Shown here piece by piece: positions 18-26,408 of a DNA stretch of 26,695 nt. The first letter of the stretch is position 1. Each line of letters begins with the position of its first letter. The notes below the pieces were generated by a model. That model saw nothing but the letters and a program-made list of their open reading frames with translations. It was not told the DNA's origin and searched no databases. The translations under genes were made by a program, and so were the position numbers. This stretch comes from a virus, in the IMG/VR virus record IMGVR_UViG_3300032282_003082, positions 1-26,695 of that record; one strand, given 5' to 3'.

Positions 18-3000
18 ATGAACATACCAACAAACATTCATACTATTGGAAACTATCGCTATAGACCTAGTGACCAAAACTCTATTTATAATTCAATCCC
101 TAATTTTTTCAGTGGCGATGAAAATAAAGACACAGAAGTAAAGTTTTACTATGGTGCAACTGATGCTGATGTTATAATTGACGGAGGAATTGATGATACT
201 GGTCTTCCAACAACACTGACTTCTACTAAAGATAAACTAAAGATGCTCTACTCACTAGAAGATTGCTTTAAACCATTTAGACCAAGGTCTGGAATTAATA
301 AAGCTGCCTACTTTCCTGGTTCATATCTTCATAACCCAAATATTAATATGGCACAAAGACCAAGATATTATATGCCTGACAAAAATGATAAATTTAAATA
401 TTGGACATCTTATAGATCTGAAGGTGGAGTTGATTACGGAATTTCAAATAATCAAATATCAGGACAAAATACTATAGATGACACTGCACCATTTATTGTT
501 TATAATGAAGATGTACCCGCTAATAGACTTATCATTAAAATGCAAACCCATGTTGGAGATATTGATCTTGGACCATTTTCAAATAATGCTGGCTCATTTA
601 ATGATCCATATTATGGAAGTATAAATCAATCTACTCCAATTAAATGGAAGGTTCAAACTCTTAAAAATAATACATGGGTAGATGTTATATCTTTTAATCA
701 AAGCACAAAAAGAAAAGACGGAACAAATATAATTAAGTCTGATGGATATGTAGAGCTATCCTATGGATTAAAAATTCCAACTAAATTTGAAGCAAATTTT
801 GTTTATGCAGAAACTTATTCTTCTATTACGTTATTGCCAGAATCATCTATAGATGGATATGCATATTTAGTCAAAGAAAATGAACATGATTTAGGTGTTT
901 TTTATGTTTGGTCTGGAACAAACTATGAGATATTTACTCCAGAATATGGATGGCAACTTCAAGAAGAAACTGTAGATAGACTAACTAATTTTGTTACAGA
1001 TCTAACATCTCCAATAATGTACACAAATCAAACAGATGGACTACTTAAGTATAGAGAGTTTGACTATCTTCGTGGAATAAGGCTTATTGTTGAAACAATG
1101 AACAAGAGTAATTCCACATTTGATTTGATAGAAATGTCTCCAAGATTAGTAGTTAACTTAACAGATAAAACATTAAGCTATTCAATTAAAAAAACCGCTT
1201 CAGACTTAGGTGTAAGTGGAATGCCTGTAGGACAACTGCTTGCGTCTAATGGCACTGTTGAATTTTTTGATTATGATAATGCGTTTAATGAAAATAATTT
1301 ATTAAGTATAATTAAAAATTATATCACAAGGCATATTCAATTTAAGTTTTATGAAATTATTTTAGATGTAAATGGTTATGATTACTATGTTCCAATAAAA
1401 ACTATGTATTCTGACGGTTTTCCAAAAATTAATAATGATTCAAAAACTGTCAGTATTGAACTTAGAGATTTATTCTTTTATTTAGAATCCCTTACAGCTC
1501 CACAAATTTTGTCAACAAATACTTCAGTAAGTTCTGCTGTATGTTTATTGTTAGATTCAATTGGTTTTTCTAATTATACTTTTAAAAGAGTTGAAGGAGA
1601 ATCAGAGGTAGTCATTCCATTTTTCTTTGTTAAGCCAGATACAAATGTTGCAGAAGTATTACAGAGTATTGCCGTATCAACTCAAACTGCAATGTTTTTT
1701 GATGAGTTTAATAATTTTATTATGATGAGTAAAGACTATATGATGCCTACAATGTCTCAAAGACCAACCGATATAACTTTATATGGAACCACAGATTTTG
1801 ATCATATAGATGTTTATCAAAATCAAAGTACAAAAAATAAAATTGCAAATATTATTGAAATTTCTTCACAGGATAATCATGTTTATAATGATGGAGTAAT
1901 TAATTATACATCTAGATATATTCAAAGATCTGAAAGCTCAGTACAACAAAGACAGTTAGTAGATGATTCAAAGACATGGATTTATAAACCAGTTCTTTTA
2001 TGGGAAGTAAGTGGTACAGAAAAAACTAAATCTATCAATGATGATTCTGGATCTTCTACATATACGTTATCTGCAATACCACTCAATTCAGATTTAACAT
2101 CTGAAGTTCCAACTGTAGAAAATCATATTCTTGTTAATAATATTATGGACTTGGGAGAAGCAGTTTATCTTCTTAGTAGATATAATGGATATTTTTATAG
2201 TAATGGAGAAATGATAAAGTTTGATGCTGTTGAATATAATATTCCAGGAGCAGAAAAAATAATTGTTTCTGAAGAAAAAAATGGTACTGCAGTTTATACA
2301 ACTACGACTACAGGTAAAATTGGAAATGTATGGATAACAAGCGCTCAAGAATATGAAAAATATTTTGCACAAATATCTTTTAAAGGAAAAATTTATCCAA
2401 CTGGAAGAATAAGAATTTATTCTGAACCAAACTATGAAGAGTTTTCTGGAAACCTAAGATTAAAAAATGGAGCAGTGGCTAAACATGGTAGAGGACAATT
2501 TGGAACTACCATTGCTTCACATTATGCTGGAATTAATCCATATTGGTACGATAATAACTATGTTCGTGGATGTACTATGAAGTCTGAATATTTATTTTCT
2601 TCTGGTCCAGAAATAACTACTACAATAGGTTCTGCTGGTATCAATAATACTCTTGCACAAAAAACTACTAGAAATAGTATAATTAAAAATATTCTTTCAT
2701 CAAATTATGTTCCAGAAAATGAAATGAATACTCTTAGGTCTACAAGAAGTGGATCAATACAGTCTTCAGCATTGGTTATGAATGGTCCATCTTTTACAAC
2801 AACAGAAAAACCATTAGACTTTGTTTCTTATGTTTATAAACAACTAGATAATAGATATAAGCACTTTGGAACTAGAATGAGGATTATTGGTAAACTTCAA
2901 AATGATACAAACAATACTCAAACAGCTGTTGGTAATACAACTTACTTTACTGTAGATGGAACAACTCCAGATAAAACTATTAATATTTCAGGTGGTTCTG

Positions 3001-4280
3001 GAGGTCTGGCTTTTCTTTTAAATCCAACAACAAATAATGGATACTACTTTGAAATTATTGGACTTGGAAGTGAGGGATTTACAAAAACCAATTCCGTAAA
3101 TGTAAATAATATAATGTTTTATAAAATTAAACAGTATGGCACAGAGGCTGTGCCTGTTAAATTATGGCAGGGACTAGCAAATATTAATGTTGACCCAGGA
3201 TTATTTGCTGGACAATATAGAATGACTGGAGATGAACAAACAAGCGTTTATGATTTATCTGCAGAGTATGTTGATAATGGATCAATTAGAACATTTTATT
3301 TATATATAAACAATAACTTGATCGCTACTATTGATGATAATGATCCACTTCCAACATATAATAATATGGCAATGTTTGTTAGAGGTTCTTCTAAAGTTAT
3401 GTTTGAAAATATTTATGCTTTAACTAATAATTATAGCCAGAATACAGGGTTTGCTTTAGATACACCAGTAAATTCTGTATTTAATGATGGTCAGATAAGC
3501 ATTAATGAAGCATTTAGAAAATATTCAATGAGTGGAATTATACAGGGAACTCATTTATCTGGAATTAGTCCAAATGACACACCACAGTATAATATTTATT
3601 TTGATGAGTTTGGCAGCATAATGAGAGAAGCGTCTTTATTTAATGTTAAATATGACAAAGCCTATCCAGCTTTATTTGCTAAACTGACTCCAACATTTAA
3701 TCGCATTAAAGGATATACTGTATCTGGCTTTAGAGCTGGATCATATGGTGCAGAGTTTTTAATCTTTAACGCAACAGATACAGTAATTGTTTTAGATCAA
3801 CAAAATGGAAATTACTTGCAGATTCAAGGAATTACTTTTACTCAGCAATCTCAGAATACATTAAGCGTTGATAATTATTTTTCTAAAAATAGTGATTTAT
3901 CAACACCACAATTTTCTGGAAGTACATTAATATCATCTCCACTTAAGATTAAAAAAGACTATGAAGATATTAAATTAAGCAGAATGACATATGGCAAGAA
4001 AGATTTTTCATTAGACGTTGAATATATACAAACTGAAGATGATGCAAATAGTTTAATGAAATGGATTATTTCAAAAATAATGAAACCAAGAAAATCTATT
4101 GGAGTAAAAATGTTTGCAATGCCAACCTTACAACTTGGAGATATTGTTAATGTAGACTATAATCAAAACGGTATTGACATTATTGGAACAACAAATAAAA
4201 GGTTTGTTATTTATAGTATTGAATATAATAAAACAAAAGATGGTCCAGAAATGAATGTTTATTTAAGTGAGGTATTGTAA
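18..4280 (+). CDS. Minor tail protein, very large (tail tip/baseplate-type)
   Basis: This is a 1420-aa virion protein, most likely part of the tail tip or baseplate. Residues ~950-1140 look like a concanavalin/LamG-type jelly roll (alternating strands, ending in a VMFENIYAL-type strand), a fold often used for sugar or receptor binding. The last ~100 residues (LQLGDIVNVDY, then FVIYSIEYN, then MNVYLSEVL) resemble the C-terminal end common in phage minor tail proteins. The low-Cys, Asn/Tyr/Thr-rich, beta-rich composition fits a structural protein. The frame stays open upstream of this ATG to the window edge (reading I-A-E-W-N) and there is no strong Shine-Dalgarno, so the true start may lie outside the window. 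Its stop overlaps the next ATG by one base (TAATG). The family assignment is inferred from size, context and C-terminus. Confidence 0.75.
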   Translation: MNIPTNIHTIGNYRYRPSDQNSIYNSIPNFFSGDENKDTEVKFYYGATDADVIIDGGIDDTGLPTTLTSTKDKLKMLYSLEDCFKPFRPRSGINKAAYFPGSYLHNPNINMAQRPRYYMPDKNDKFKYWTSYRSEGGVDYGISNNQISGQNTIDDTAPFIVYNEDVPANRLIIKMQTHVGDIDLGPFSNNAGSFNDPYYGSINQSTPIKWKVQTLKNNTWVDVISFNQSTKRKDGTNIIKSDGYVELSYGLKIPTKFEANFVYAETYSSITLLPESSIDGYAYLVKENEHDLGVFYVWSGTNYEIFTPEYGWQLQEETVDRLTNFVTDLTSPIMYTNQTDGLLKYREFDYLRGIRLIVETMNKSNSTFDLIEMSPRLVVNLTDKTLSYSIKKTASDLGVSGMPVGQLLASNGTVEFFDYDNAFNENNLLSIIKNYITRHIQFKFYEIILDVNGYDYYVPIKTMYSDGFPKINNDSKTVSIELRDLFFYLESLTAPQILSTNTSVSSAVCLLLDSIGFSNYTFKRVEGESEVVIPFFFVKPDTNVAEVLQSIAVSTQTAMFFDEFNNFIMMSKDYMMPTMSQRPTDITLYGTTDFDHIDVYQNQSTKNKIANIIEISSQDNHVYNDGVINYTSRYIQRSESSVQQRQLVDDSKTWIYKPVLLWEVSGTEKTKSINDDSGSSTYTLSAIPLNSDLTSEVPTVENHILVNNIMDLGEAVYLLSRYNGYFYSNGEMIKFDAVEYNIPGAEKIIVSEEKNGTAVYTTTTTGKIGNVWITSAQEYEKYFAQISFKGKIYPTGRIRIYSEPNYEEFSGNLRLKNGAVAKHGRGQFGTTIASHYAGINPYWYDNNYVRGCTMKSEYLFSSGPEITTTIGSAGINNTLAQKTTRNSIIKNILSSNYVPENEMNTLRSTRSGSIQSSALVMNGPSFTTTEKPLDFVSYVYKQLDNRYKHFGTRMRIIGKLQNDTNNTQTAVGNTTYFTVDGTTPDKTINISGGSGGLAFLLNPTTNNGYYFEIIGLGSEGFTKTNSVNVNNIMFYKIKQYGTEAVPVKLWQGLANINVDPGLFAGQYRMTGDEQTSVYDLSAEYVDNGSIRTFYLYINNNLIATIDDNDPLPTYNNMAMFVRGSSKVMFENIYALTNNYSQNTGFALDTPVNSVFNDGQISINEAFRKYSMSGIIQGTHLSGISPNDTPQYNIYFDEFGSIMREASLFNVKYDKAYPALFAKLTPTFNRIKGYTVSGFRAGSYGAEFLIFNATDTVIVLDQQNGNYLQIQGITFTQQSQNTLSVDNYFSKNSDLSTPQFSGSTLISSPLKIKKDYEDIKLSRMTYGKKDFSLDVEYIQTEDDANSLMKWIISKIMKPRKSIGVKMFAMPTLQLGDIVNVDYNQNGIDIIGTTNKRFVIYSIEYNKTKDGPEMNVYLSEVL

Positions 4281-4771
4281 TGGTAGATCCAGTAGCAAAT
4301 TTAGCAGCATCAAATCCTTTAACTTCTACAGCAGCAGTTAAAGTTGCAACACCAGACTTAATTCTTTTTAATGATCAGTTGCTTCCAGAAGAGGTAATGA
4401 TTGATTTAGTTTTTGAAGACATTGGTGGAGAAGAAATGATTAATATAGTCCGTAATGATTTAGTTAATGGACAAAATCAATCTAGACAGATTGTTAGAAA
4501 TTTAGCTCAAATTAATTTAGATTATAATTCAAATAATATTTTAAGCTTGCAAGATACCTCTGCTTCATATTTTAAAAATTTTCCAATTGATTTTAGTCAA
4601 AAGGTTCCAGATGTTGGAACTGGTTTAAATGGAGAGATAGTCTATATTGAAGAAGGAACAGGCAATATAATTATTAATGTAGTTAGACTTGAGCCTGATG
4701 AGCAAGTAGAGGTGCAACTACTTAGTGCTGGATTGATACTTAATGGTACAATATATGAGGTGAATAATTAA
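4280..4771 (+). CDS. Hypothetical virion-associated protein (163 aa)
   Basis: A 163-aa protein I do not recognise, translationally coupled to genes on both sides by one-base overlaps. It has an Ala/Ser/Thr-rich N-terminus (about residues 1-25), then a mostly acidic body with short hydrophobic strands. There is no signal peptide, membrane segment or Cys pair. It lies between the large minor tail protein and a fibre-like protein, so a tail-tip or fibre-connector role is plausible by position only. Confidence 0.6.
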   Translation: MVDPVANLAASNPLTSTAAVKVATPDLILFNDQLLPEEVMIDLVFEDIGGEEMINIVRNDLVNGQNQSRQIVRNLAQINLDYNSNNILSLQDTSASYFKNFPIDFSQKVPDVGTGLNGEIVYIEEGTGNIIINVVRLEPDEQVEVQLLSAGLILNGTIYEVNN

Positions 4772-6012
4772 TGATAACTAATACTGGAAAAGGCATTTTA
4801 GCAAAATATTTAGTTGGGCAATCCCCAGCATATGCTTCATACATTGCTGTAGGTTGTGGTCCAACACCACTTCCTTTAGAGTATGATTTTAATTCAATAT
4901 TAAATGCAGATGAAGTTTCTGCAATGAAAAATAAAACAACTTTAGATTTTGAAATGTTTCGTGTTCCAATTACTTCTCGTGGGTATGTTGTGGAAGATGT
5001 TGTAGTGAATGATGAAGTTCAAAAAATATCTAAGGTTGTTTTAACAGCAGAACTTCCAACAGAAGAAAGGTATGAAATTTCTGAGGTTGGTATTTTTTCA
5101 GCTGGTTCAAATGCAGCAGCAGGTGCGTATGATAGTAAAACCGTACACTCATTTAATACTACAGAAAATTGGGAGTATCATTCACAAACTTCAGCCGAAA
5201 AAATTCCAACAGTCTATGTGCCTTTAGATTTAGACAATGATGATATTATTTCTGGTGAATATAAAATTAATCCACTTACTAAACAATATGATGCTGGATC
5301 TGGTGGAGTATTGGTTGATACTCCAGCAATACAAACAACTGCAGACAATAAAATATTTACATATCCAGCTAGATCTGAAAGATATGAGCAAGGTCGTTTT
5401 TTAAACAATGTAATTATGCTTCGTGGTGACTCTGCAGACTTATCAACAGAAATTGTTTCAGGGGTAACTAGACTAAAAGTAGAAAATCCATCAAGTCATA
5501 TTCATCTAACTGGAACTGCTATTGATTTTAGTAAAAATGCTCCAACAGATGAGCTTAGGTTAGCATTTTCAGTAATCAATAGAGATGGAGAAGCATCAAA
5601 TGTTGTTCCAGATGAAGTGAGAATTCTTGTAGAGTTTTCATCTTCAGATGTTGTAGACTCTGGAGAATGGGCAAGATTTGAAACAATTTTTTCAGCCGAA
5701 GATTATGATTTTGCTACAAATAGATATTACGTATCTACTAAACAATTACAACAGTTAAGAAAAAGTACATCTTTTACATGGGCCTCTGTTAACCTTGTTA
5801 AAATTTATGTTTGTGTTTTAAATAATTCAGAGCCGTCTCCTGAGTTTTATGTATCTTTAGATGCTTTAAGGCTTGAAAATGTTAGTACAACTAATTCATT
5901 ATATGGTTTAAGTGGATATTCTGTTATTAAAAATACTAACTCAGCAACAATAACTAAACTATCAAATACAACTAATTATATAGAATTTAGATTTACAGTG
6001 GATGTTCAATAA
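4771..6012 (+). CDS. Tail fibre/adhesin-like protein
   Basis: A 413-aa protein. Residues ~1-135 (starting MITNTGKGILAKYL, then YIAVGCGPTPL) resemble the attachment part of phage fibre or baseplate-periphery proteins, with a VPITSRGYVV strand and an EISEVGIFSAG segment. Residues ~190-370 are a beta-rich domain (LKVENPSSHIHL, then LRLAFSVINRDG, ending FYVSLDALRLEN) resembling carbohydrate-binding-module jelly rolls. This suggests recognition of host surface glycans. It starts at an ATG overlapping the previous stop and ends overlapping the next ATG, so it belongs to the tail operon. Fibre function is inferred from domain look and position. Confidence 0.6.
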   Translation: MITNTGKGILAKYLVGQSPAYASYIAVGCGPTPLPLEYDFNSILNADEVSAMKNKTTLDFEMFRVPITSRGYVVEDVVVNDEVQKISKVVLTAELPTEERYEISEVGIFSAGSNAAAGAYDSKTVHSFNTTENWEYHSQTSAEKIPTVYVPLDLDNDDIISGEYKINPLTKQYDAGSGGVLVDTPAIQTTADNKIFTYPARSERYEQGRFLNNVIMLRGDSADLSTEIVSGVTRLKVENPSSHIHLTGTAIDFSKNAPTDELRLAFSVINRDGEASNVVPDEVRILVEFSSSDVVDSGEWARFETIFSAEDYDFATNRYYVSTKQLQQLRKSTSFTWASVNLVKIYVCVLNNSEPSPEFYVSLDALRLENVSTTNSLYGLSGYSVIKNTNSATITKLSNTTNYIEFRFTVDVQ

Positions 6013-6440
6013 TGGCAGATATTGGAATTAAAAAGGTAACAATATTAAAATCAGATATAAAATCAATTTCTGGTGATGAACAGGGATATGTTTTAAGATA
6101 TAGAGTTGTATCTGAAGATAAGAATAGATCATCACACTGGTCTCCACAGTATAAACTATCCGCTGAAGCACAAGAGCCGATTGCTTATTCTATTAATGTG
6201 GATAATCCACATGATACTGCAACAGTTGTTTGGCAAAATGTTGTAGGGGTAAAAGAATATGATATTTACATTAAGTGGGATAATGCTGTTTGGAATTATA
6301 TAACAACCGTAGGATCGCCTTCTTTTGCAACACTAACAACTGGACATAACCATATTGAATTAGCTGTTCAAGTTCCAACCTTTCCAAAACAAAGGTTTGT
6401 TGGAGCAACTCTATTTGAGATACCAGTAACAAACGTTTAA
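6012..6440 (+). CDS. Fibronectin type III-like virion protein
   Basis: A 142-aa protein with an Fn3/Ig-like pattern. It has YVLRYRVVSEDKNRSSHWSP near residues 25-45, then an ATVVWQNVVGVKEYDIYIK segment near residues 75-93. The alternating W/Y strands and the V-x-W...Y-x-I-Y spacing are typical of Fn3 domains. Such domains commonly decorate phage tails and help adhesion to cell-surface carbohydrates. Its start is coupled to the previous stop (TAATG). Its stop is followed at once by a leaderless-type promoter for the next gene. Confidence 0.55.
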   Translation: MADIGIKKVTILKSDIKSISGDEQGYVLRYRVVSEDKNRSSHWSPQYKLSAEAQEPIAYSINVDNPHDTATVVWQNVVGVKEYDIYIKWDNAVWNYITTVGSPSFATLTTGHNHIELAVQVPTFPKQRFVGATLFEIPVTNV

Positions 6441-6449
6441 TGGTATAAT
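6441..6449 (+). promoter_or_regulatory. Extended -10 promoter, leaderless type, for the gene at 6456
   Basis: TGG-TATAAT (hexamer 6444-6449) starts right after the previous stop codon and ends 6 nt before ATG 6456. Transcription should therefore begin at or next to the start codon. No Shine-Dalgarno is present between them and no good -35 is visible. Leaderless mRNAs are common in Actinobacteria; their use here is inferred. Confidence 0.65.
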
Positions 6450-6455
6450 AGAATA

Positions 6456-6899
6456 ATGGCAAAGATACCGCTTCCAGATAGAGGACAACCTCTTGACGTG
6501 ACATATATTTATAAGATGGCTGAGGCAATTAATGATGTTGCTACTCAGGTATCTCCAACTAACTCAAAATACTTAACTGTAGATGCTGGATCTAATGGAA
6601 AACAAACTAGAAGAATTTCAGAGTCAAGAATTTTGGGTGGGTATAAAGAAATTATTAATGGTGGAACCGTCACGGCAGGACAAGAACAAGCTTTTACATA
6701 TGATTTTGGTGTAGAGTTTAAGTTTGCCCCAATTGTAACCGCAACAGTTGTAAATGTGACCGATAGACCCGCAGGTAAAAATATTTCAGTAATTTTAAAA
6801 TCTCCAACGACATCAAAGGTCGACGGTATTGTAAGATTTAATACAACAGGAGATGTTACTGTTGGTGTTAACCTGATTGTTATTGGTATTCCAAATTAA
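6456..6899 (+). CDS. Probable tail fibre/virion protein, leaderless start
   Basis: A 147-aa protein. The N-terminus (IPLPDRGQPLDVTYIYKMAE, near residues 4-23) and the short helix after it look like a trimerisation or attachment segment. The C-terminal half (residues ~65-147) is a regular beta pattern (FTYDFGVEFKFAPIVTATVV, then ISVILKSPTTS, then VGVNLIVIGIP) resembling the small beta-sandwich at the ends of some fibres, such as H-type-lectin-like folds. It is preceded by its own extended -10 element and lacks a Shine-Dalgarno. It overlaps the next gene by one base. Function is inferred from shape and position. Confidence 0.55.
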   Translation: MAKIPLPDRGQPLDVTYIYKMAEAINDVATQVSPTNSKYLTVDAGSNGKQTRRISESRILGGYKEIINGGTVTAGQEQAFTYDFGVEFKFAPIVTATVVNVTDRPAGKNISVILKSPTTSKVDGIVRFNTTGDVTVGVNLIVIGIPN

Positions 6900-7090
6900 T
6901 GCTAAAATGCAAAAAGTGCAAAGGTAGGATGCTAATTGATAGAATTTATAGTTCTCCAACACACCTTGAAACCTATTGTATTATGTGTGGTACAAGAGTT
7001 TTCTTTACACCACCTGGACAAACACCAGAGGGTTTATGGCTACTAAAAAAGGAACAACAGAGAGCGAAGGCTACAATCTCTCCCCTATAA
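6899..7090 (+). CDS. Small zinc-ribbon protein (63 aa)
   Basis: A 63-aa protein with two Cys pairs, C4-x2-C7 and C27-x2-C30, separated by ~19 residues. This is the classic spacing of a rubredoxin-like zinc ribbon. The C-terminus is basic and Gln/Lys-rich. It is coupled to the previous gene by a one-base overlap. It overlaps the next gene's chosen start (7036) by 55 nt in another frame. Nucleic-acid or protein binding is the usual role of such ribbons; no specific role can be assigned. Confidence 0.6.
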   Translation: MLKCKKCKGRMLIDRIYSSPTHLETYCIMCGTRVFFTPPGQTPEGLWLLKKEQQRAKATISPL

Positions 7091-7578
7091 TTCCTGGCAA
7101 TAAAAAAGTTTGGTTTTTAAATGGGGATTTAGTTAGAGTACATCATTTTAATAAATCTAATGGAATTATGTCTGTTTATAATATTACTAAAGATCAGATT
7201 GAAAGTTGTTTAATTAGTGAATTTAAAAAGAAAAGAGAAAAGGCTTATACTGTTGGCGAGACTGCTGATTTGGTTAATCGTCATAAAAAATATATGCCAA
7301 GATTAATGAAGAAAGGTTTAATCCCTTTTCCAATGGGTTCTCAAAAAGGAGGAGCAAGGGGATGGCAAATAAGATCATATTATTCAGAATCTCAAGTAAG
7401 AGAGATTCGTGATATACTTGCAATGAACCATATTGGAAGACCAAGAAAAGACAATTTAATAACAAATGATATTACTCCTACCAAGCAAGAGTTGACAAGG
7501 CGTATGGGAGAGGGTATACTTACATATACGAAGACAGAAGATGGAAGGTTTATTCCGATTTGGAATGAGTCTATTTAA
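7036..7578 (+). CDS. MerR-like helix-turn-helix DNA-binding protein
   Basis: A 180-aa protein from the ATG at 7036, which has an AGAGGG-like ribosome site just upstream. An in-frame start 20 codons earlier (6976) would add a Trp/Tyr-rich run that overlaps the zinc-ribbon gene and is less likely. Residues ~12-50 form a small beta domain (VWFLNGDLVRVHHF). Residues ~65-125 (AYTVGETADLVNRH, then MPRLMKKGLIPFP, then SQVREIRDIL) look like a MerR/excisionase-type winged HTH: helix-turn-helix, a wing with Gly, then a recognition extension. It is the first regulatory-type gene between the tail and replication modules, so it may control one of them. Confidence 0.6.
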   Translation: MATKKGTTESEGYNLSPIIPGNKKVWFLNGDLVRVHHFNKSNGIMSVYNITKDQIESCLISEFKKKREKAYTVGETADLVNRHKKYMPRLMKKGLIPFPMGSQKGGARGWQIRSYYSESQVREIRDILAMNHIGRPRKDNLITNDITPTKQELTRRMGEGILTYTKTEDGRFIPIWNESI

Positions 7579-7591
7579 CGAAGGGTATAAA

Positions 7592-7798
7592 ATGGAAAAC
7601 GATTCAACTAAGGTATCTGTAACACTTGGGTACACATTAAATTTAGGAAACTTTCAATCACTAAGACTTGATCTTGGTATTATAGATTCTAAGCGTGGAG
7701 AAGAAACTACAAACGATGCTTTTGAGCGTGTTTATAAGTTTGTTGAAGACAAGCTTGCTGAAAAAATTAACGAAGCAAAAGCTGAAATTAACGAATAG
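7592..7798 (+). CDS. Conserved-looking phage hypothetical protein (68 aa)
   Basis: A 68-aa protein from ATG 7592, with a CGAAGGG ribosome site 6-12 nt upstream. A longer reading from 7541 would overlap the HTH gene and is not supported. It has an N-terminal two-strand beta region (VSVTLGYTLNLGNFQSLRLD) followed by an acidic amphipathic helix (FERVYKFVEDKLAEKI). I have a general memory of short proteins with a Y-T-x-N-L-G-N-x-x-S core in phage replication regions, but no function is known to me. Its stop overlaps the GTG start of the next gene. Confidence 0.55.
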   Translation: MENDSTKVSVTLGYTLNLGNFQSLRLDLGIIDSKRGEETTNDAFERVYKFVEDKLAEKINEAKAEINE

Positions 7799-8106
7799 TG
7801 GCAGAGCGCAAAGACCGAATGGCTTTGCTTTCACGCTACAGTAAATACCATACTGCAAGGTATGAGCAAAAGCCATCACTAAATTTAAATGTAGAGCAAT
7901 GGGCAGCAGATGCTCTTGTAGAGTCATATGGCATGTCTGGTTGCTACGATATACTTGAGTACTACTTTAAAGTTTCAGAAAACCCTTCATGGAATTATTT
8001 TGCTTATAATGCAGAAAAAATTTTACAAGCACAAAAAGATAAAAGTCGAGATGACAAAGAGAGAGCAGAGCGCAGACGAATGGCAAAGGAGTGGCTAAGT
8101 GAATAA
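7798..8106 (+). CDS. Hypothetical protein upstream of replicative helicase (102 aa)
   Basis: A 102-aa protein starting at GTG 7798, which overlaps the previous stop (TAGTG); an ATG seven codons in is an alternative. It is helical, with Tyr/Trp-rich segments and a strongly charged C-terminal helix (residues ~78-100). No motif was recognised. It overlaps the helicase gene by 8 nt. Small proteins encoded immediately before phage DnaB-type helicases are sometimes helicase loaders. That is a positional guess only. Confidence 0.5.
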   Translation: MAERKDRMALLSRYSKYHTARYEQKPSLNLNVEQWAADALVESYGMSGCYDILEYYFKVSENPSWNYFAYNAEKILQAQKDKSRDDKERAERRRMAKEWLSE

Positions 8107-9322
8107 TACAGAGGCAAAATTAATCTCCGCAGTCCTTAATGATAAACAGGTTCATGTTCTTTTACAGGCAAATGTGGATAATCTTCTCAGAACTCATAAT
8201 GATGTTTGGAATTTTATAAGAAACTATTTTGAACATAACAGTTCTGTTCCACCAACAGATTTAGTAGTTGAAAAGTTTAGAGACTTTCAGCCAATTACTG
8301 GAGTAGGTGCAACCAAACACCATCTTGAAGAATTGCAGTCAGAATATTTGACTGATAGTCTTAAAGACATTATTCGTACAGCAGCATCTGAAATTCAGAC
8401 TGGTAATGGCGGAGAAGCCCTTGATCAACTAATTACTAAAACATCTGAGTTAAAGAAAAATACATCAGCAATACGTGATATTGATGTAACGGATCTTGAG
8501 TCAGCAGTTGCATACTTTGAAAATCTAAAAGAGCAACAGGCATTAGGACATGTTGGTATTAAAACTAACCTACCAGGATTTGATAACTATCTTCCATCTG
8601 GAATTATGCCAGGGCAGCTAGGAGTCTTCTTAGCATACCCAGGCATAGGAAAGTCATGGATGGCTCTATACTTTGCTGTACAGGCCTGGAAACAGGGTAA
8701 GACACCCCTTGTAATCTCTCTTGAGATGTCAGAGACAGAAGTTCGTAACCGTGTTTTTACTATTATGGGTGAAGGTCTTTGGTCTCATAGAAAACTAAGT
8801 AATGGTGAAGTTGAGATGGATATGCTAAAGATGTGGCATGCAAAACATCTACAAGGCAAACCAGAGTTTCATATTATTTCTAATGACCAAGGTGGAGAGA
8901 TTAACCCTTCAGTTCTTCGTGGAAAGATTGATCAATATAAGCCAGACTTTGTAATCGTTGACTACCTTCAATTAATGGCTCCTAATCAGAAGTCAGATAA
9001 TGAAACTGTAAGAATGAAGAACCTTTCTCGTGAACTAAAGCTTATGGCTATTGGTGAAGAGGTTCCTATTATAGCCATCTCATCAGCAACACCAGATGAT
9101 GTTAATGATCTTAGTGGAGTTCCTACTTTAGGTCAAACTGCTTGGTCAAGACAGATTGCCTATGATGCAGACTGGGTTATTGCTTTAGGTCGTGCAACTA
9201 ATAGTGATATTATTGAGTGCGCTTTTAGAAAAAACCGCAATGGCTTTATGGGAGATTTTCTTGTTCAAGTTGACTTTGACAAAGGATATTATAGATATAA
9301 AGACTTTGAGGATAAAAATTAA
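8099..9322 (+). CDS. dnaB: DnaB-type replicative DNA helicase
   Basis: A 407-aa ring helicase that unwinds the replication fork. The RecA-like ATPase core is clear: Walker A near 180-187 (YPGIGKSW), the SLEM motif at 208-211, Walker B FVIVDYLQLM at 284-293, and an R-K-N-R-N-G arginine-finger/H4-type segment at 377-382. The N-terminal ~130 residues form a reduced DnaB N-domain (helical), so the protein is shorter than the ~470 aa of bacterial DnaB, like many phage versions. It starts at GTG 8099 within the previous gene's end. It should partner the primase encoded at 9589. Replacement of the host helicase is inferred. Confidence 0.92.
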   Translation: MNNTEAKLISAVLNDKQVHVLLQANVDNLLRTHNDVWNFIRNYFEHNSSVPPTDLVVEKFRDFQPITGVGATKHHLEELQSEYLTDSLKDIIRTAASEIQTGNGGEALDQLITKTSELKKNTSAIRDIDVTDLESAVAYFENLKEQQALGHVGIKTNLPGFDNYLPSGIMPGQLGVFLAYPGIGKSWMALYFAVQAWKQGKTPLVISLEMSETEVRNRVFTIMGEGLWSHRKLSNGEVEMDMLKMWHAKHLQGKPEFHIISNDQGGEINPSVLRGKIDQYKPDFVIVDYLQLMAPNQKSDNETVRMKNLSRELKLMAIGEEVPIIAISSATPDDVNDLSGVPTLGQTAWSRQIAYDADWVIALGRATNSDIIECAFRKNRNGFMGDFLVQVDFDKGYYRYKDFEDKN

Positions 9323-19612: not shown

Positions 19613-20135
19613 AGATGATTTAGTTAAACATCTTGATCAAGTCAATGATGTAGTTGAAGAATACCTAAAAGGTAATGATCCAACTAAAATTTCTAAAGAC
19701 CTTGCAATCCCACGTACCCGTGTAGTTCAACTTATTAATGAGTGGAAAGTTATGGCATCAGCTAATGATGCTATTCGTGCACGTGCCAAAGAAGCACTTG
19801 CTGCTGCCGATGCACACTATGGAAAGTTAATTTCAAAATCTTATGAAGTAATTGATGAAGCATCTATGACTAATAATCTTAGTGCTAAAACCGCAGGTAT
19901 TAAATTAGTTATGGATATTGAGTCTAAGCGTATTGATATGCTACAAAAAGCTGGATTGCTTGAGAATAAAGAGCTTGCAGAAGAGATGGTTGAAATTGAG
20001 AATAGGCAAATGGTTTTAATGTCTATTCTTAAAGACATTGCTTCAGAACATCCAGAGATTCGTGATGAAATTATGAAGAGGCTATCTTCTATTGCTAAAC
20101 AAGATGAGGTTATTACGGTAGTACATGATGGCTGA
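19602..20135 (+). CDS. Probable terminase small subunit
   Basis: A 177-aa helical protein directly before, and overlapping by 11 nt, the large terminase gene. Residues ~18-48 form a helix-turn-helix (KISKDLAIPRTRVVQLINEW). A long coiled-coil-like central region (residues ~60-130) could drive oligomerisation, and the C-terminus is acidic. DNA recognition by HTH plus ring assembly is the usual plan of small terminases, which bind the pac/cos site. The call rests on position and architecture; sequence similarity cannot be judged here. Confidence 0.6.
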   Translation: MSTEDDLVKHLDQVNDVVEEYLKGNDPTKISKDLAIPRTRVVQLINEWKVMASANDAIRARAKEALAAADAHYGKLISKSYEVIDEASMTNNLSAKTAGIKLVMDIESKRIDMLQKAGLLENKELAEEMVEIENRQMVLMSILKDIASEHPEIRDEIMKRLSSIAKQDEVITVVHDG

Positions 20136-21903
20136 TTTTGGTGATTTTATTGAAGCTTTAAAAAATAATAATTTTGCTGAGACTCCAGTAAATGCTAAAA
20201 CATTTGTTGAGGGTGAAGACTATTTAGGACAACCTCCGTTATCTCAAATACAGTATGACATTATTGAAGCTATGAGTCAAATCTATAGAAAAGAAGATCT
20301 CATTGATTTAATGGGTGAAGAAGAAGGCGCAAGGTACTATAAAAAATATACTAAGAATGAAATTATTCTGCAACTTGGCAAGGGATCTGGTAAAGACTTT
20401 ACCTCAACAGTAGCATGTGCTTATATAGTATACAAGCTGCTATGTCTAAAAGATCCAGCAAGATATTTTGGTAAGCCTTCTGGAGATGCTATTGATATTA
20501 TTAACGTTGCCATTAACGCACAACAGGCAAAGAACGTTTTCTTTAAAGGTTTTAAAACAAAGATTGAAAAATCCCCTTGGTTTCAAGGTAAGTATAATCC
20601 AAAAGCAGAAAGCATTGAGTTTGATCATGCTATTACTGTTTACTCTGGTCACTCAGAAAGAGAATCACATGAAGGTTTAAACCTTATTCTTGCTGTACTT
20701 GATGAGATCTCTGGCTTTGCTAATGAGGTAGGAACTGGAAATGATCAAGGTAAAACTGCAGATAATATCTATAAAGCATTCCGTGCTTCTGTAGACTCTC
20801 GTTTCCCTGACCTTGGCAAAGTTGCATTGCTTTCTTTCCCCCGTTATCCAGGAGACTTTATTTCACAAAGATATGATGCTGTAATTTTAGAAAAAGAATC
20901 TTTGCACAAGACTCATAAGTTTATTATTAATGATGAACTTCCAGAAGATATGGTTGGTAATTTTTTAGAAATTGAATGGGATGAAGATCAAATCATTTCA
21001 TATAAGTATCCAGGAGTGTTTGCATTAAAAAGACCAACATGGGAAGTTAACCCAACAAGAAAGATTGATGACTTTAAGATTGCTTTTATGACAGACCTTG
21101 GAGATGCTATGCAACGCTTTGCCTGCGTTCCAACATACTCAACAGATGCGTTTTTTAAGCAGGTAGAAAAAGTTAGAGCATGTATGACTATTAGAAATCC
21201 CATTGACTCATATAAAAGATTTGATGAAACATTTAAACCAGATCCAACTAAAAAATATTATGTTCATGCTGACTTAGCTCAAAAGCACGATAAGTGTGCT
21301 GTTGCTATTGCACATGTTGATAAGTGGGTAAATATTCAGGTAATTAAAGATTATCAACAAGTAGCACCAGTGGTGGTAGTAGATGCTGTAGTATATTGGG
21401 AACCAAAAATTGAAGGTCCTGTTAATTTATCTGAAGTAAAATTATGGATTCAGAATTTAAGAAGACAGGGTTTTGATATTGGAATGGTTTCTTTTGACCG
21501 CTGGCAATCGTTTGATATTCAAAATGAATTAAAACAAGTTGGAATAAGAACTGAAACAGTTTCTGTTGCTAAAAAACATTATGAGGATATGGCTATGCTT
21601 GTATATGAGGAAAGACTTGCTATGCCAGCAATTGAATTATTGTTTGAAGAATTAACTGAGCTAAAAATCATGAAAAATAATAGAGTTGACCACCCACGAA
21701 AATCTTCTAAAGACTTAGCAGATGCTGTTTGTGGTGCAATATTTGGGGCTATCTCTCATACTCCAAAGGATTTAGATCAAGAAATTGAAATACATACGTT
21801 CAGGGATCGACCTAAAGTTGACAACCCCTTTGCAAATGTGATAGAATATAAACCTATGCCAAATGATGTAAAAGATTATTTGGATAGATTCAACTTACTA
21901 TAG
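20125..21903 (+). CDS. terL: Terminase large subunit (packaging ATPase-nuclease)
   Basis: A 592-aa DNA-packaging motor. The ATPase part has Walker A L-G-K-G-S-G-K-D at ~84-91 and Walker B LILAVLDE with the catalytic Glu at 194. The RNase H-like nuclease part has candidate metal ligands D383 (YVHADLAQ), D458 (SFDRWQS) and D533 in SSKDLADAVCGA. Two ATG codons in tandem (20125, 20128) are possible starts. Length is usual for TerL (~450-650). It lies far from the tail genes at the left edge and next to replication genes, so portal and capsid genes are expected outside the window. A promoter for the next gene lies in its 3' end. Confidence 0.9.
   Translation: MMADFGDFIEALKNNNFAETPVNAKTFVEGEDYLGQPPLSQIQYDIIEAMSQIYRKEDLIDLMGEEEGARYYKKYTKNEIILQLGKGSGKDFTSTVACAYIVYKLLCLKDPARYFGKPSGDAIDIINVAINAQQAKNVFFKGFKTKIEKSPWFQGKYNPKAESIEFDHAITVYSGHSERESHEGLNLILAVLDEISGFANEVGTGNDQGKTADNIYKAFRASVDSRFPDLGKVALLSFPRYPGDFISQRYDAVILEKESLHKTHKFIINDELPEDMVGNFLEIEWDEDQIISYKYPGVFALKRPTWEVNPTRKIDDFKIAFMTDLGDAMQRFACVPTYSTDAFFKQVEKVRACMTIRNPIDSYKRFDETFKPDPTKKYYVHADLAQKHDKCAVAIAHVDKWVNIQVIKDYQQVAPVVVVDAVVYWEPKIEGPVNLSEVKLWIQNLRRQGFDIGMVSFDRWQSFDIQNELKQVGIRTETVSVAKKHYEDMAMLVYEERLAMPAIELLFEELTELKIMKNNRVDHPRKSSKDLADAVCGAIFGAISHTPKDLDQEIEIHTFRDRPKVDNPFANVIEYKPMPNDVKDYLDRFNLL
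21818..21847 (+). promoter_or_regulatory. Strong consensus-like promoter inside the terL 3' end
   Basis: TTGACA (21818-21823), an 18-nt spacer, then TAGAAT (21842-21847) preceded by TGA (an extended -10). This is the best promoter in the window. The predicted start is near 21854, giving a ~60-nt leader before ATG 21916, which has an AAAAGGA ribosome site. It would let the secreted-protein gene be expressed independently of the packaging operon. Confidence 0.7.
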
Positions 21904-23071: not shown

Positions 23072-23107
23072 GGGGGGTTGGCTACATGCCAGCCCCTCTT
23101 CTTTTTT
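23072..23107 (+). terminator. Strong rho-independent terminator
   Basis: An 11-bp GC-rich stem (arms 23072-23082 and 23088-23098, two G-T wobbles) with a TACAT loop, followed by a T-rich tract ending in TTTTTT. It sits 16 nt after the surface-protein stop and closes that transcription unit. Confidence 0.85.
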
Positions 23108-23109
23108 CA

Positions 23110-23118
23110 TGATACAAT
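23110..23118 (+). promoter_or_regulatory. Extended -10 promoter, leaderless type, for the cupin gene
   Basis: TGA-TACAAT (hexamer 23113-23118) ends 6 nt before ATG 23125, right after the terminator T-tract. There is no Shine-Dalgarno in the gap, so initiation on a leaderless mRNA is expected. No -35 is possible within the terminator stem. Confidence 0.6.
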
Positions 23119-23124
23119 ACTTAT

Positions 23125-23733
23125 ATGTTAGATATATTTAAACAAGCAAAAGCAAATAATCAAGTTTTGCATTTTGAAAATTTTCAGGCACCAGAAATTA
23201 CATGGGAAGACGCAGTAAAATTTATATATAAGGAGTCTAAGACCCCTAATAAAGATTTAGCAGAAAACCCTACTTGGAATAATTCAGGCCAAGTACATGG
23301 TAATTTGATAGCAATAGGTGGTTATCTTTTACCTCACACAAGAAATCTATCTTTAATATTTAAAGGTGTTTCAGAATTAATGCAAAAAATTAATAATAGA
23401 GATGATAGTTTTAATTGTTCATATTATAATGATCCAAATTTAAATAACAATATTGGATGCAGTTGTGATTTACCTTGGCATATTCAGGCATTAAGATTTT
23501 CTATTACAGAGCATCATGTTCAAGATCATAATGACCCAAATGATGTTTTATACTGGCAACTTTTAGGCACTTCATATTGGAAAATAAATGGAGATAAAGT
23601 CTATAAACTAAACCCTGGAGATTTATTCTATTTTAATAAAGAAGATTCCCATGAAGTTTGGCAAGATGGGCCTAGATCTGGAATTATAATAGATAATTTT
23701 CATAGCAAAGATCCCCATAAAACATACCCATAA
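23125..23733 (+). CDS. Cupin/JmjC-like Fe(II) oxygenase-type protein
   Basis: A 202-aa protein whose C-terminal half has a cupin/JmjC pattern. H135-N-D137 is followed by VLYWQLLGTSYWKI, then LNPGDLFYF with an H176 ligand in EDSHEVW. This H-x-D...H set is the iron-binding triad of JmjC, cupin-4 and related 2-oxoglutarate oxygenases; R184 could contact the cosubstrate. Residues 1-110 are unassigned, with three Cys (98, 112, 114) just before the core. No signal peptide, so it is cytoplasmic. Possible jobs are hydroxylation of a protein residue or a small molecule; the substrate is unknown. It could also be a non-enzymatic cupin. Confidence 0.6.
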   Translation: MLDIFKQAKANNQVLHFENFQAPEITWEDAVKFIYKESKTPNKDLAENPTWNNSGQVHGNLIAIGGYLLPHTRNLSLIFKGVSELMQKINNRDDSFNCSYYNDPNLNNNIGCSCDLPWHIQALRFSITEHHVQDHNDPNDVLYWQLLGTSYWKINGDKVYKLNPGDLFYFNKEDSHEVWQDGPRSGIIIDNFHSKDPHKTYP

Positions 23734-23763: not shown

Positions 23764-23772
23764 TGATATAAT
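23764..23772 (+). promoter_or_regulatory. Extended -10 promoter for the PA14 protein gene
   Basis: TGA-TATAAT (hexamer 23767-23772), a perfect extended -10 with no clear -35. The predicted start is near 23779, giving a ~32-nt leader before the proposed ATT start at 23811. The leader contains a small palindrome and a purine-rich ribosome site. Confidence 0.65.
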
Positions 23773-23810: not shown

Positions 23811-26408
23811 ATTAAAAAGTTATTACGCATAGTTTTAGTACTATCCCTAGCCCTCTTACCCCTTATCGTAGGCATAGATAAAGCCCACGCAGCAGAAGGT
23901 TTAACTGCTCAAGTCTATAACGTTTTGGGACAAAACAACGCTCCTTATATACCAGAGGGAGCTTCTCCTATACTAACTACTAATGTTCCTAATATTGATT
24001 TTCAATGGGGTAGCGGGAATGTTTCTGGCACAAATCGCTGGGATGATGTAATTGTCAGATATACAGGGTCAATCATTAGCAATACTACCCAAGATATTTC
24101 ATTTTTAGCAACAGCAGATGATGGAACAAAGCTCTACCTTGATGGTGTTTTAATAACAAATGATTGGCGGGATAAAGGTGGCGGAGGAACACTATCTTCC
24201 CCAGTATCTTTTACAGCAGGAGTTCCTAAAACCATAGAATTAATGTATTATGAAAATGGTGGAGGAGCATGGGTTCGGCTTTCGTGGGATCAATCTGGAT
24301 CAATGCAAGTTATTCCAGCAGAAGCCTTTACATCAGTAGCAGCTCCAATAGTAAAAACTATAGGTCCACCAAGAAATCTTACCGTAGTAGATAATGCAAC
24401 AAAAACAATATTAACTTGGGAAGCCCCTAATACTGGCAATACTCAGCCAGAAAGATATGCTATTTCTTTTAGCGCAGACAGCGGTGGCTGGGGTATAGCA
24501 ACTGGAAATGTTGGAGATGCTAATGCTCTCAATACAACCATAACCATTAATCATTCAATATTAGAACAGCTAAAACCAAGTGGAACTGTTTGGACATTTT
24601 CTATTAGATCTGATAATGATACAGAGCACTTATATTCTGATACATCAAACCAAGTAGCATTAAAAATTGGATTAACTCAAGAAGAAAAAGATGCTCAGGC
24701 AGCTGCTGCATTAGCAGCACAACAAGAATTAGATAGACAAGCAGCAGCAAACACTGCAGTTACTAATTATGAGAATCAACCAATAAGAACTTTATCAGAA
24801 GTGTCTATTGCAGAAGACTTAAAATTATTAGCTGATACTGCAACGGCAACTATTTTAAATCAAAATGTAAAGGTAACTTTACAATCAAGGATTGATGCAA
24901 GGGTATCAATAGTTTCTGCAGCAAAATCATTATTAATACAAGCAAAACTTGAAGCAGAAGCTGCAGCAAAATTAGCAGCAGAAAGAGAAGCAGCCAGAAT
25001 TGCTGCAGAACAAGAATCTGCTAGGCAAGCTGCTATTATCGCTGAAGCAGCAAGAGTAGAGGCTGCAAGGCAAGCAGCAATTGCTGAAGCAAATAGAATT
25101 GAAGCAGAAAGACAAGCTGCAATAGCAGAGGCTAACCGCATTGCTGCAGAAAAAGAAGCTGCTAGACAAGCAGCAATAATTGCAGAACAATATAGATTAG
25201 CAGAGATAGCAAGACAGGCCGCAATTAAAGCAGAACAAGATAGAATTGCTGCAGAAATAGTAGCACAAAAAGCAGAAGCAGATCGTTTGGCTGCAGAAGA
25301 AAGAGCAAGAATACAAGCAGAGATTGATGCAAAAGCAGAAGCAGATCGCATTGCTGCTGAAAAAGCAATAGCAGACGCCAAAGCAGCAGAAGAAAAAGCA
25401 GCAGCAGAAGCAAAGGCTGCAGAAGAAGCAAGGATTGCTGCAGAGCAAGCAGCCAAAGAAGCAGAAGCAGCACGACTAAAGGCTGAAGAAGAGGCAAGAA
25501 TTCAGGCAGAAAAAGATGCTAAGGCCAAGGCTGATGCTGAAAAAGCAGAGGCAGATAGATTAAAAGCAGAAGCTGACGCAAAAGCCAAGGCAGAAGAAGA
25601 TGCAAGACTTGAAGCAATAAAGAAAGCAGATGAAGAAGCAAGAGCAAAGGCTGAAGCAGATAGACTTGCACAAATTGCTAAAGATAAAGCAGCAGCAGAA
25701 GCCAGAATAGCAGCAGAGCAAAAGGCTAAAGAGGCAGAGGCTGCTCGTTTAAAGGCAGAAGCAGATAGAAAAATTGCTGAAGAGAAGGCTTTAAATGATG
25801 GAAAGATTACCAAAGAAGATGCTAAAAAGGTTTTAGATAATATTAATGCAGATGGCAAAGTGACTCAAGAAGAAGTTAAAAATATTGTTGACGCAATTAA
25901 AAAATCAGATTCTCCATTAACTGTTGAGCAAAAAGATTTAATCGCAACAGTAGTTGTTGCAGCAGCAATATCTTCTGGAGAAAATGTTACAGCAGCACAG
26001 ATTCAAGATGCTGGAATTCAATACAAAGATCTTCCAGCCTCAACACCAGTTGAGGTTCGCACATCTGAAAGTGGAGAAGCCCTTGTTATTACTGCTGAGG
26101 TAGCAGCAAATGTAGAACTAGTTACAGATGCTGGAGCATTATTAGAAGCAGCCTTTACAGATCCAGGAGCAGCACTTGCTGCAATTGGAAGCATTGGTGC
26201 AGATATGACTGAAGGCGAAAGAAAAGAAGCAACAGATATGGTTGTTGCAACAGTTGTGGCAGCGGGAGCAGCAATGAATGCTGTAGGCGCTGCAGCAGGA
26301 TCTACTGGAGGATCATCTGGAGGCTCTCGTTCAGGCGGGGGTAATTCTGGAGGATCAGGTGGAGGAGGAGCCTCTGGCAATTCCAAGGGAGTAAGGAGAA
26401 GACCATGA
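23811..26408 (+). CDS. Secreted PA14-Fn3-coiled-coil protein, probable ATT start
   Basis: An ~865-aa exported protein. The frame stays open upstream of the first standard start (TTG 23925) and encodes a textbook signal peptide (KKLLRIVLVLSLALLPLIVG, cleavage after A-H-A near residue 27). The only fitting initiator is ATT at 23811, 5 nt after GGGGGAG; TAA at 23796 closes the frame. The order is PA14 domain (~29-175; FLATADDGTKLYLDG, WVRLSWDQSG), Fn3-like domain (~180-285; PPRNLTVVDNATKTILTWEAP), a ~375-residue Ala/Glu/Lys coiled coil with imperfect repeats, an EF-hand-like loop (N-x-N-x-D-G-x-V-x-x-x-E, near residue 677), an Ala-rich domain, then a Gly/Ser tail ending in R-R-R-P. PA14 domains often bind sugars, so a cell-surface or lysis-stage adhesin is possible. 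Confidence 0.75.
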   Translation: MKKLLRIVLVLSLALLPLIVGIDKAHAAEGLTAQVYNVLGQNNAPYIPEGASPILTTNVPNIDFQWGSGNVSGTNRWDDVIVRYTGSIISNTTQDISFLATADDGTKLYLDGVLITNDWRDKGGGGTLSSPVSFTAGVPKTIELMYYENGGGAWVRLSWDQSGSMQVIPAEAFTSVAAPIVKTIGPPRNLTVVDNATKTILTWEAPNTGNTQPERYAISFSADSGGWGIATGNVGDANALNTTITINHSILEQLKPSGTVWTFSIRSDNDTEHLYSDTSNQVALKIGLTQEEKDAQAAAALAAQQELDRQAAANTAVTNYENQPIRTLSEVSIAEDLKLLADTATATILNQNVKVTLQSRIDARVSIVSAAKSLLIQAKLEAEAAAKLAAEREAARIAAEQESARQAAIIAEAARVEAARQAAIAEANRIEAERQAAIAEANRIAAEKEAARQAAIIAEQYRLAEIARQAAIKAEQDRIAAEIVAQKAEADRLAAEERARIQAEIDAKAEADRIAAEKAIADAKAAEEKAAAEAKAAEEARIAAEQAAKEAEAARLKAEEEARIQAEKDAKAKADAEKAEADRLKAEADAKAKAEEDARLEAIKKADEEARAKAEADRLAQIAKDKAAAEARIAAEQKAKEAEAARLKAEADRKIAEEKALNDGKITKEDAKKVLDNINADGKVTQEEVKNIVDAIKKSDSPLTVEQKDLIATVVVAAAISSGENVTAAQIQDAGIQYKDLPASTPVEVRTSESGEALVITAEVAANVELVTDAGALLEAAFTDPGAALAAIGSIGADMTEGERKEATDMVVATVVAAGAAMNAVGAAAGSTGGSSGGSRSGGGNSGGSGGGGASGNSKGVRRRP

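Follow-up and report, generated by a model that had tools for sequence, protein, structure and literature searches.

The window, the 26,695-base IMG/VR virus record analysed here, carries a gene whose 202-residue product is predicted to adopt a JmjC-like, double-stranded beta-helix (DSBH) fold. Our preferred reading, to which we give about an even chance, is that this gene is a phage moron cassette encoding a minimal JmjC-type Fe(II)-dependent and probably 2-oxoglutarate (2OG)-dependent oxygenase with a structural zinc site. The protein family, its predicted fold, its residue conservation, the presence or absence and allele difference at one genomic site, and the promoter pattern were each computed directly. 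The gene, the predicted functional residues and the neighbouring elements, all on the + strand, are as follows.

20125..21903, +, large terminase subunit gene terL, the upstream neighbour (tblastn; best 53–57% identity to annotated Streptomyces phage terminases)
21916..23055, +, Ala-rich protein gene directly after terL (ORF; signal-peptide-like N-terminus by eye)
23072..23108, +, intrinsic terminator ending the upstream unit (11-pair hairpin and T-run; −25.4 kcal/mol, z −5.5)
23110..23118, +, extended −10 promoter element TGATACAAT, 6 nt before the ATG, giving a leaderless start
23125..23733, +, JmjC-like/cupin oxygenase-fold protein gene, from ATG to stop (ORF, 202 aa)
23416..23481, +, codons of the candidate metal motif C98, C112, C114 and H119
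23527..23535, +, codons H135-N136-D137, with the first two predicted metal ligands (35/35 members; aligned to the HxD of 4csw)
23572..23574, +, codon S150, the site of the JmjC 2OG-anchoring Lys/Arg (Asp+13)
23650..23652, +, codon H176, the predicted distal metal ligand (35/35)
23674..23676, +, codon R184, candidate 2OG anchor (H176+8, start of the last model strand; invariant, in distant relatives too)
23764..23772, +, TGATATAAT, probable promoter for the gene that follows, in flanking sequence common to the empty site and identical in locus L002 shortly after the terminator
23811..26408, +, PA14 and Ala-rich repeat protein gene, the downstream neighbour (PA14 4.3e-8; fn3 weak, below cut-off)

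Used alone as a query, the window protein found no viral relatives, and it matched none of 50,697 phage records at an E-value of 0.01. The first homologue, L003 (46% identity), came from a scan of terL relatives. A profile of the cupin core recovered 54 viral loci in a scan of viral contigs, and a profile of 35 members recovered 67 in a second such scan, a set that overlaps the 54. The distant groups L197-L205 and L206 were among the loci of the wider profile scan, and two further scans using the distant groups added L218. With member L116 as the query and E-values up to 10, partial matches were found to eight phage records (best E 1) and to 18 plasmid records (Streptomyces cupin-domain proteins; best E 8e-4), mostly covering the barrel core. 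Phmmer matches to designed proteins and to MT-A70 family proteins (E 0.17–0.22) were set aside as noise. Two scans of bacterial and archaeal genome contigs found no relative with the narrow peptide patterns used, and because those patterns were narrow, absence from bacterial and archaeal genomes does not follow. PHROG 4992, which has no assigned function, matches the window protein partially, over residues 133–184 (1.2e-5), and is matched by all five members of alignment A2 (best 6.2e-8). Family members are 42–53% identical to the window copy, and across 35 distinct members ten residues are invariant: H135, D137, H176, R124, S150, R184, C98, C114, W118 and H119. We conclude that this is a real phage gene family with conserved residues. 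An earlier note on this DNA had singled out H135-N136-D137, H176, PGDLFYF (164–170) and the cysteines at 98, 112 and 114; all are present, and the identity of H135, D137, H176, G165, D166, C98 and C114 in 35 of 35 distinct members indicates that they are not there by chance.

A single-sequence AlphaFold model of the window protein was useless (pLDDT 36); AlphaFold2 with a 38-row alignment gave a pLDDT of 88.5 and a pTM of 0.86. This model has a largely helical N-terminal part followed by eight strands within residues 119–191, which form the eight-stranded DSBH of the cupin/JmjC fold. The barrel whose absence the earlier note had taken as one sign against its reading is thus present in the model. 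VIA superpositions gave Z-scores of 12.5 with JMJD7 (159 residues, 3.8 Å), 12.3 with YcfD (162 residues, 3.5 Å), 12.1 with the P. putida P4H (148 residues, 3.0 Å) and up to 11.7 with PHD2. Those with JMJD7, YcfD and P4H run from residue 1 to 195–200, nearly the whole chain, and 2OG oxygenases make up most of the 50 best VIA matches over the whole chain. The comparison with ribosomal oxygenases that the earlier note had proposed yielded a YcfD-type match with a Z of about 12 across residues 1–200. The top Foldseek matches in the PDB were MINA53, a bacterial 2OG-Fe(II) oxygenase and YcfD, with E-values between 8.5e-6 and 2.5e-5, TM-scores of 0.45–0.54 relative to query length and rmsd of 6–7.5 Å; the Foldseek superpositions with 2OG oxygenases had an rmsd of 6–9 Å. 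Small non-2OG cupins were close behind in the top ten, including phosphomannose isomerase (3.7e-5) and quercetin dioxygenase (4.4e-5), with fewer aligned columns.

At E-values up to 1, Pfam matched JmjC_2 and Cupin_2 in all 35 members, Cupin_8 in 28 and AraC_binding in 14, and the best JmjC_2 E-value among members was 1e-8. For the window copy, all Pfam matches fall below the curated cut-offs (17.7 against 22 bits for JmjC_2, PF08007), with AraC_binding and Cupin_2 scoring slightly above JmjC_2. A sequence-only PDB search gave no clear match, the best being 3-hydroxyanthranilate dioxygenase (3-HAO) at E 0.011 (0.048 in a second search). Membership of the 3-HAO group was rejected: the metal-binding Glu of that enzyme, which we take to lie at His+6, is V or I at the corresponding position 141 (H135+6) in alignment A4. 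In the profile alignment, H135 and D137 fall on the HxD of the YcfD-like 4csw. We conclude that a DSBH/JmjC-like fold is supported by the predicted structure. The earlier proposal of a JmjC-like iron oxygenase fold thus stands as regards the fold, given the model, the VIA matches and JmjC_2 in 35/35 members, and fails as regards a 2OG-binding residue at the JmjC position.

The YcfD/RoxA-type ribosomal oxygenases (4lit, 4liu, 4ccl, 4csw) share the DSBH barrel, the helical N-terminal part, the HxD...H triad and the PGD-L-Y and G-x-x-x-W signatures. However, they are 360–388 residues long rather than 202, they have a 2OG-binding Arg at Asp+13 where the phage protein has Ser, and the phage family adds a Cys/His motif before the barrel; identity is 12–16% among the matches listed, and 14–16% in the VIA comparison. 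The P4H/PHD2 prolyl hydroxylases are of similar size, superpose over the whole chain with VIA Z-scores of 11–12 and have an Arg soon after the distal His, but this Arg is at +10 (DdPhyA H266/R276) rather than +8, and the Pfam signature here is JmjC_2/Cupin, not PF13640. The best viral structural matches are phage 'JmjC domain-containing' proteins in BFVD, from cyanophages and uncultured phages (14–16% identity; the top two are 165 and 205 aa long), led by the protein of Cyanophage P-TIM40, with an E-value of 1e-6 and a TM-score of 0.69 relative to target length. Plant-virus polyproteins were matched in the same search, presumably through AlkB-like domains.

The HxD...H metal triad of JmjC-type 2OG oxygenases is present in all 35 distinct members, and its invariance at 42–53% identity speaks for a metal function that has been retained. 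The residue with which JmjC hydroxylases bind the C5 carboxylate of 2OG is a Lys or Arg; it lies at Asp+13 in JMJD5 (H321/D323/K336), as described in PMC9712658, and by prediction in YcfDRM (H133/D135/R148), as given in PMC5862935. The 2OG contact residue that the earlier note had suggested looking for does not occur at this position, where all 35 members have Ser150 (Asp137+13). Enzymes of the PHD class have an Arg downstream of the distal His, at H+10 in DdPhyA (H266/R276), as described in PMC7864055. The equivalent candidate here is R184, at H176+8 against a published spacing of about 10. It is invariant in alignment A5 (38 rows) and is kept in 10 of 10 rows of an alignment that includes L197, L213, L218, two L206 proteins and a divergent second copy from L131. 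That copy has Glu and His where the HxD aligns and keeps the Arg184 equivalent; the persistence of the Arg beyond the HxD counts against reading R184 as purely catalytic. R124 is a second anchor candidate, since its spacing matches that of JMJD5 W310, which lines the 2OG pocket at H−11 according to PMC9712658. At position 124, the 10-row distant alignment has R in four rows, K in the L131 copy and V in three, the two L206 proteins being unmatched there. Kept even in distant relatives, R184 is the best candidate for a substitute 2OG anchor. As a separate observation, the second, divergent cupin-like gene of L131 (1201–1857) lies between ruvC-like and pre-terL genes and has lost both the HxD and the Cys motif.

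Immediately before the barrel is a motif of four residues, of which C98, C114 and H119 are identical in 35/35 members; position 112 is Cys in 11 and His in 24 of these. The loop between the motif residues varies in length, with C98, [C/H]112, C114 and H119 conserved. All four are kept in L197, L213 and L218, and residues 112, 114 and 119 are lost together in L206a, L206b and L131b, with a Cys near 98 remaining in L206a. This joint loss, together with the conservation of the motif, fits one metal site. We conclude that C98/[C or H]112/C114/H119 probably forms a single structural metal site, with zinc the presumed ion. In the tree, the 24 His112 members form one group, with support that is not strong (89/77), and because they group together the Cys-to-His exchange counts as approximately one event. 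The pLDDT averages about 53 over residues 101–110, and the metal site is therefore poorly modelled. The three cysteines that the earlier note had described as unusual are no oddity of the window copy; they belong to a family motif, with C98 and C114 in every one of the 35 members.

The gene appears to have its own leaderless promoter; a leaderless promoter in this phage had been named in the earlier note. The hairpin that ends the upstream unit has counterparts in L002 and L003. In 24 of 38 members, TGNTANNNT is found 5–6 nt before the ATG (6 nt in 22, 5 nt in two), whereas 1000 mononucleotide shuffles gave a mean of 0.16 and a maximum of 3; since the members are related, the 24 are not independent. 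No SD-like word was found at the window cupin start or in any of these 24; the other 14 members are without the element, and four of them have SD-like words. The element is also present in L095 and L106, loci not beside terL. Leaderless genes, which are described in PMC3160421 as having TANNNT about 12 bp upstream of the start codon, make up >20% of genes in Actinobacteria. At the window gene, TACAAT begins 12 bp before the ATG. A general promoter scan of the stretch listed 11 sites against 7.2 expected; TGATACAAT was absent from the list, having no −35 match. Among the 30 window starts listed, one other (6456) has the same leaderless-looking arrangement, with TGGTATAAT six bases upstream of its ATG (6441–6458). 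We conclude that leaderless expression of the cupin gene is supported by the arrangement of promoter element, six bases and ATG.

The terminase gene matches 352 phage records, every one at <60% identity, most commonly from phages of Streptomyces (127) and Gordonia (105); the window TerL is similar to the TerL of actinobacterial phages. The Ala-rich protein that follows has no significant match in Pfam, PHROG or NCBIfam. In the annotation of Streptomyces phage Phredrick, the genes after the terminase are small hypothetical genes and tRNAs, with no cupin, and a term search of a paper on isolated Nanopelagicales phages (PMC10202952) finds neither 'oxygenase' nor 'cupin'. The GC content of the cupin gene is 29.6%, against 34.9% for the window, and the family ranges from 26 to 38%. 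The downstream PA14 gene (23811–26408) has, by eye, an apparent ATT start after a strong SD sequence, GGGGGAGAAGG, with an in-frame TAA just upstream and no intervening ATG, GTG or TTG; the start in L002 (near 11880) is seemingly ATT too, and that in L003 is GTG.

Several lines of evidence suggest that the cupin gene is exchanged as a unit. Of the 54 loci, 29 (with 19 distinct proteins) encode a TerL homologue on the same strand, 1.1–1.9 kb upstream of the cupin. Among these 29, a homologue of the Ala-rich protein lies in between in 15 and a homologue of the PA14 protein follows the gene in 18, some contigs ending too early to judge. In L002, whose TerL is 98% identical to that of the window, the terminator is followed directly by the PA14-gene promoter, a clean absence of the cupin gene. 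In L139 (the L003 contig) and L140, TerL is 98% and 97% identical to the window protein, the Ala-rich protein 69% and 68%, and the PA14 protein 81% and 79%, and the cupin is only 46% and 45% identical. In a maximum-likelihood tree, which carries a long-branch warning, the window copy falls in a 9-row clade (support 100/98), and L139 and L140 fall in a 28-row clade (100/99). Since the alleles lie in separate supported clades, the locus has probably exchanged alleles, by recombination as we read it. It is possible instead that the gene diverged fast in place: the flanking DNA, up to about 22.5–22.8 kb, is only 87–89% identical to L002, L003 and L140, so the phages are related, not near-identical, and the tree has long branches. 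We conclude that the cupin gene is probably an exchangeable moron. A cupin gene was found downstream of terL in one of the best 80 terL relatives from a scan of viral contigs, 41 of which have at least 2.5 kb there; this sample is no estimate of prevalence. The idea that the cupin is nearly absent from the terL site was dropped, as the cupin-led scan places it at that same site in 29 of 54 loci.

Gene context at other loci offers clues to function. Within about 6 kb of the cupin in L094 (4713–12053) are six PF13640 2OG-Fe(II) oxygenase-like genes, one on the same strand and five on the opposite strand, and a short-chain dehydrogenase gene; five of the six score above the Pfam cut-off and one falls 0.1 bit below it. 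Gene order in L100 is similar by eye, and one of three neighbours searched in L111 is PF13640. The cupin homologue of L095 has glycosyltransferase, epimerase and FkbM methyltransferase genes clustered around it (1236–8208). PMC3037559 describes marine cyanophages as rich in 2OG-Fe(II) oxygenases, present in 14 of 16 genomes, with roles only proposed. Taken with the oxygenase and glycosyltransferase contexts, this is best read as pointing to a protein or glycan that is modified by oxidation. As to the substrate, our guess is a protein or glycan that might belong to the virion or to the surface of the host.

Under our preferred reading, the gene would be a self-contained, one-gene cassette, with a terminator before it, its own leaderless extended −10 promoter, and the promoter of the next gene after it. 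Its product would be a minimal, single-domain DSBH protein of the JmjC-hydroxylase type. We infer iron, 2OG and zinc as ligands, hydroxylation as the reaction and recombination as the route of exchange: Fe(II) would be bound via H135, D137 and H176; 2OG would be held by Arg184 on the last strand, as in P4H/PHD, rather than by the strand IV Lys/Arg of JmjC; C98/[C,H]112/C114/H119, just before the barrel, would hold a structural zinc; and the enzyme would hydroxylate a protein or glycan.

Alternatively, the product could be a cupin that binds metal but works without 2OG, sharing no more than the barrel and a metal triad with JmjC enzymes: a 3-HAO-type dioxygenase, a nucleotide-sugar isomerase or epimerase, or a small-molecule sensor. 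We consider this rather unlikely. In its favour, the JmjC 2OG position is without Lys or Arg, 3-HAO provides the best PDB sequence matches, Cupin_2 and AraC_binding match as well, phosphomannose isomerase and quercetin dioxygenase reach the Foldseek top ten, and one set of homologues lies in a sugar gene cluster. However, the triad is HxD...H and the 3-HAO Glu position is V or I, the small cupins align over only 78–148 columns among the matches listed, and the top VIA matches are mostly 2OG oxygenases.

The missing canonical anchor would also suit a JmjC-like protein that has no catalytic activity and acts by binding a host or phage partner, for example in anti-defence, in which case the variation among related phages at this locus, both in presence and in allele, would reflect an arms race. 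Invariance of three metal ligands in 35/35 members at 42–53% identity makes this distinctly improbable in our estimation. We regard as very improbable a ribosomal oxygenase proper, hydroxylating a host ribosomal protein as YcfD does; YcfD-type chains are among the closest folds, with a Z of about 12, but the phage chain stops after the barrel at 202 aa where the matched YcfD-type chains have 360–388, the Arg/Lys anchor is absent, and identity is 12–16% among the matches listed.

Databases already contain phage proteins named as JmjC or cupin. A search of the open-access literature on bacteriophage cupin/JmjC proteins returned only a review on histone and DNA/RNA demethylation, and nothing on phage JmjC-like genes; to our knowledge, no substrate is known for such genes of phages. 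What is new here is that the JmjC anchor is missing throughout the family, that there is a Cys/His motif and that the cassette is probably exchanged. The terL site provides a natural genetic comparison, with related phages that have the gene, lack it, or have a different allele at one site, and the family yields two residue-level predictions, that R184 is the 2OG anchor and that C98/[C,H]112/C114/H119 is a metal site. The most far-reaching possibility, which we put forward as a rather doubtful one, is a class of minimal 2OG oxygenases with the JmjC fold that is specific to phages, a JmjC/P4H hybrid whose anchor has shifted out of strand IV and into the last strand and which has its own zinc site, traded between phages as a leaderless-promoter cassette and altering virion or host surface chemistry. 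If true, this would mean that the JmjC fold can work with its 2OG anchor elsewhere.
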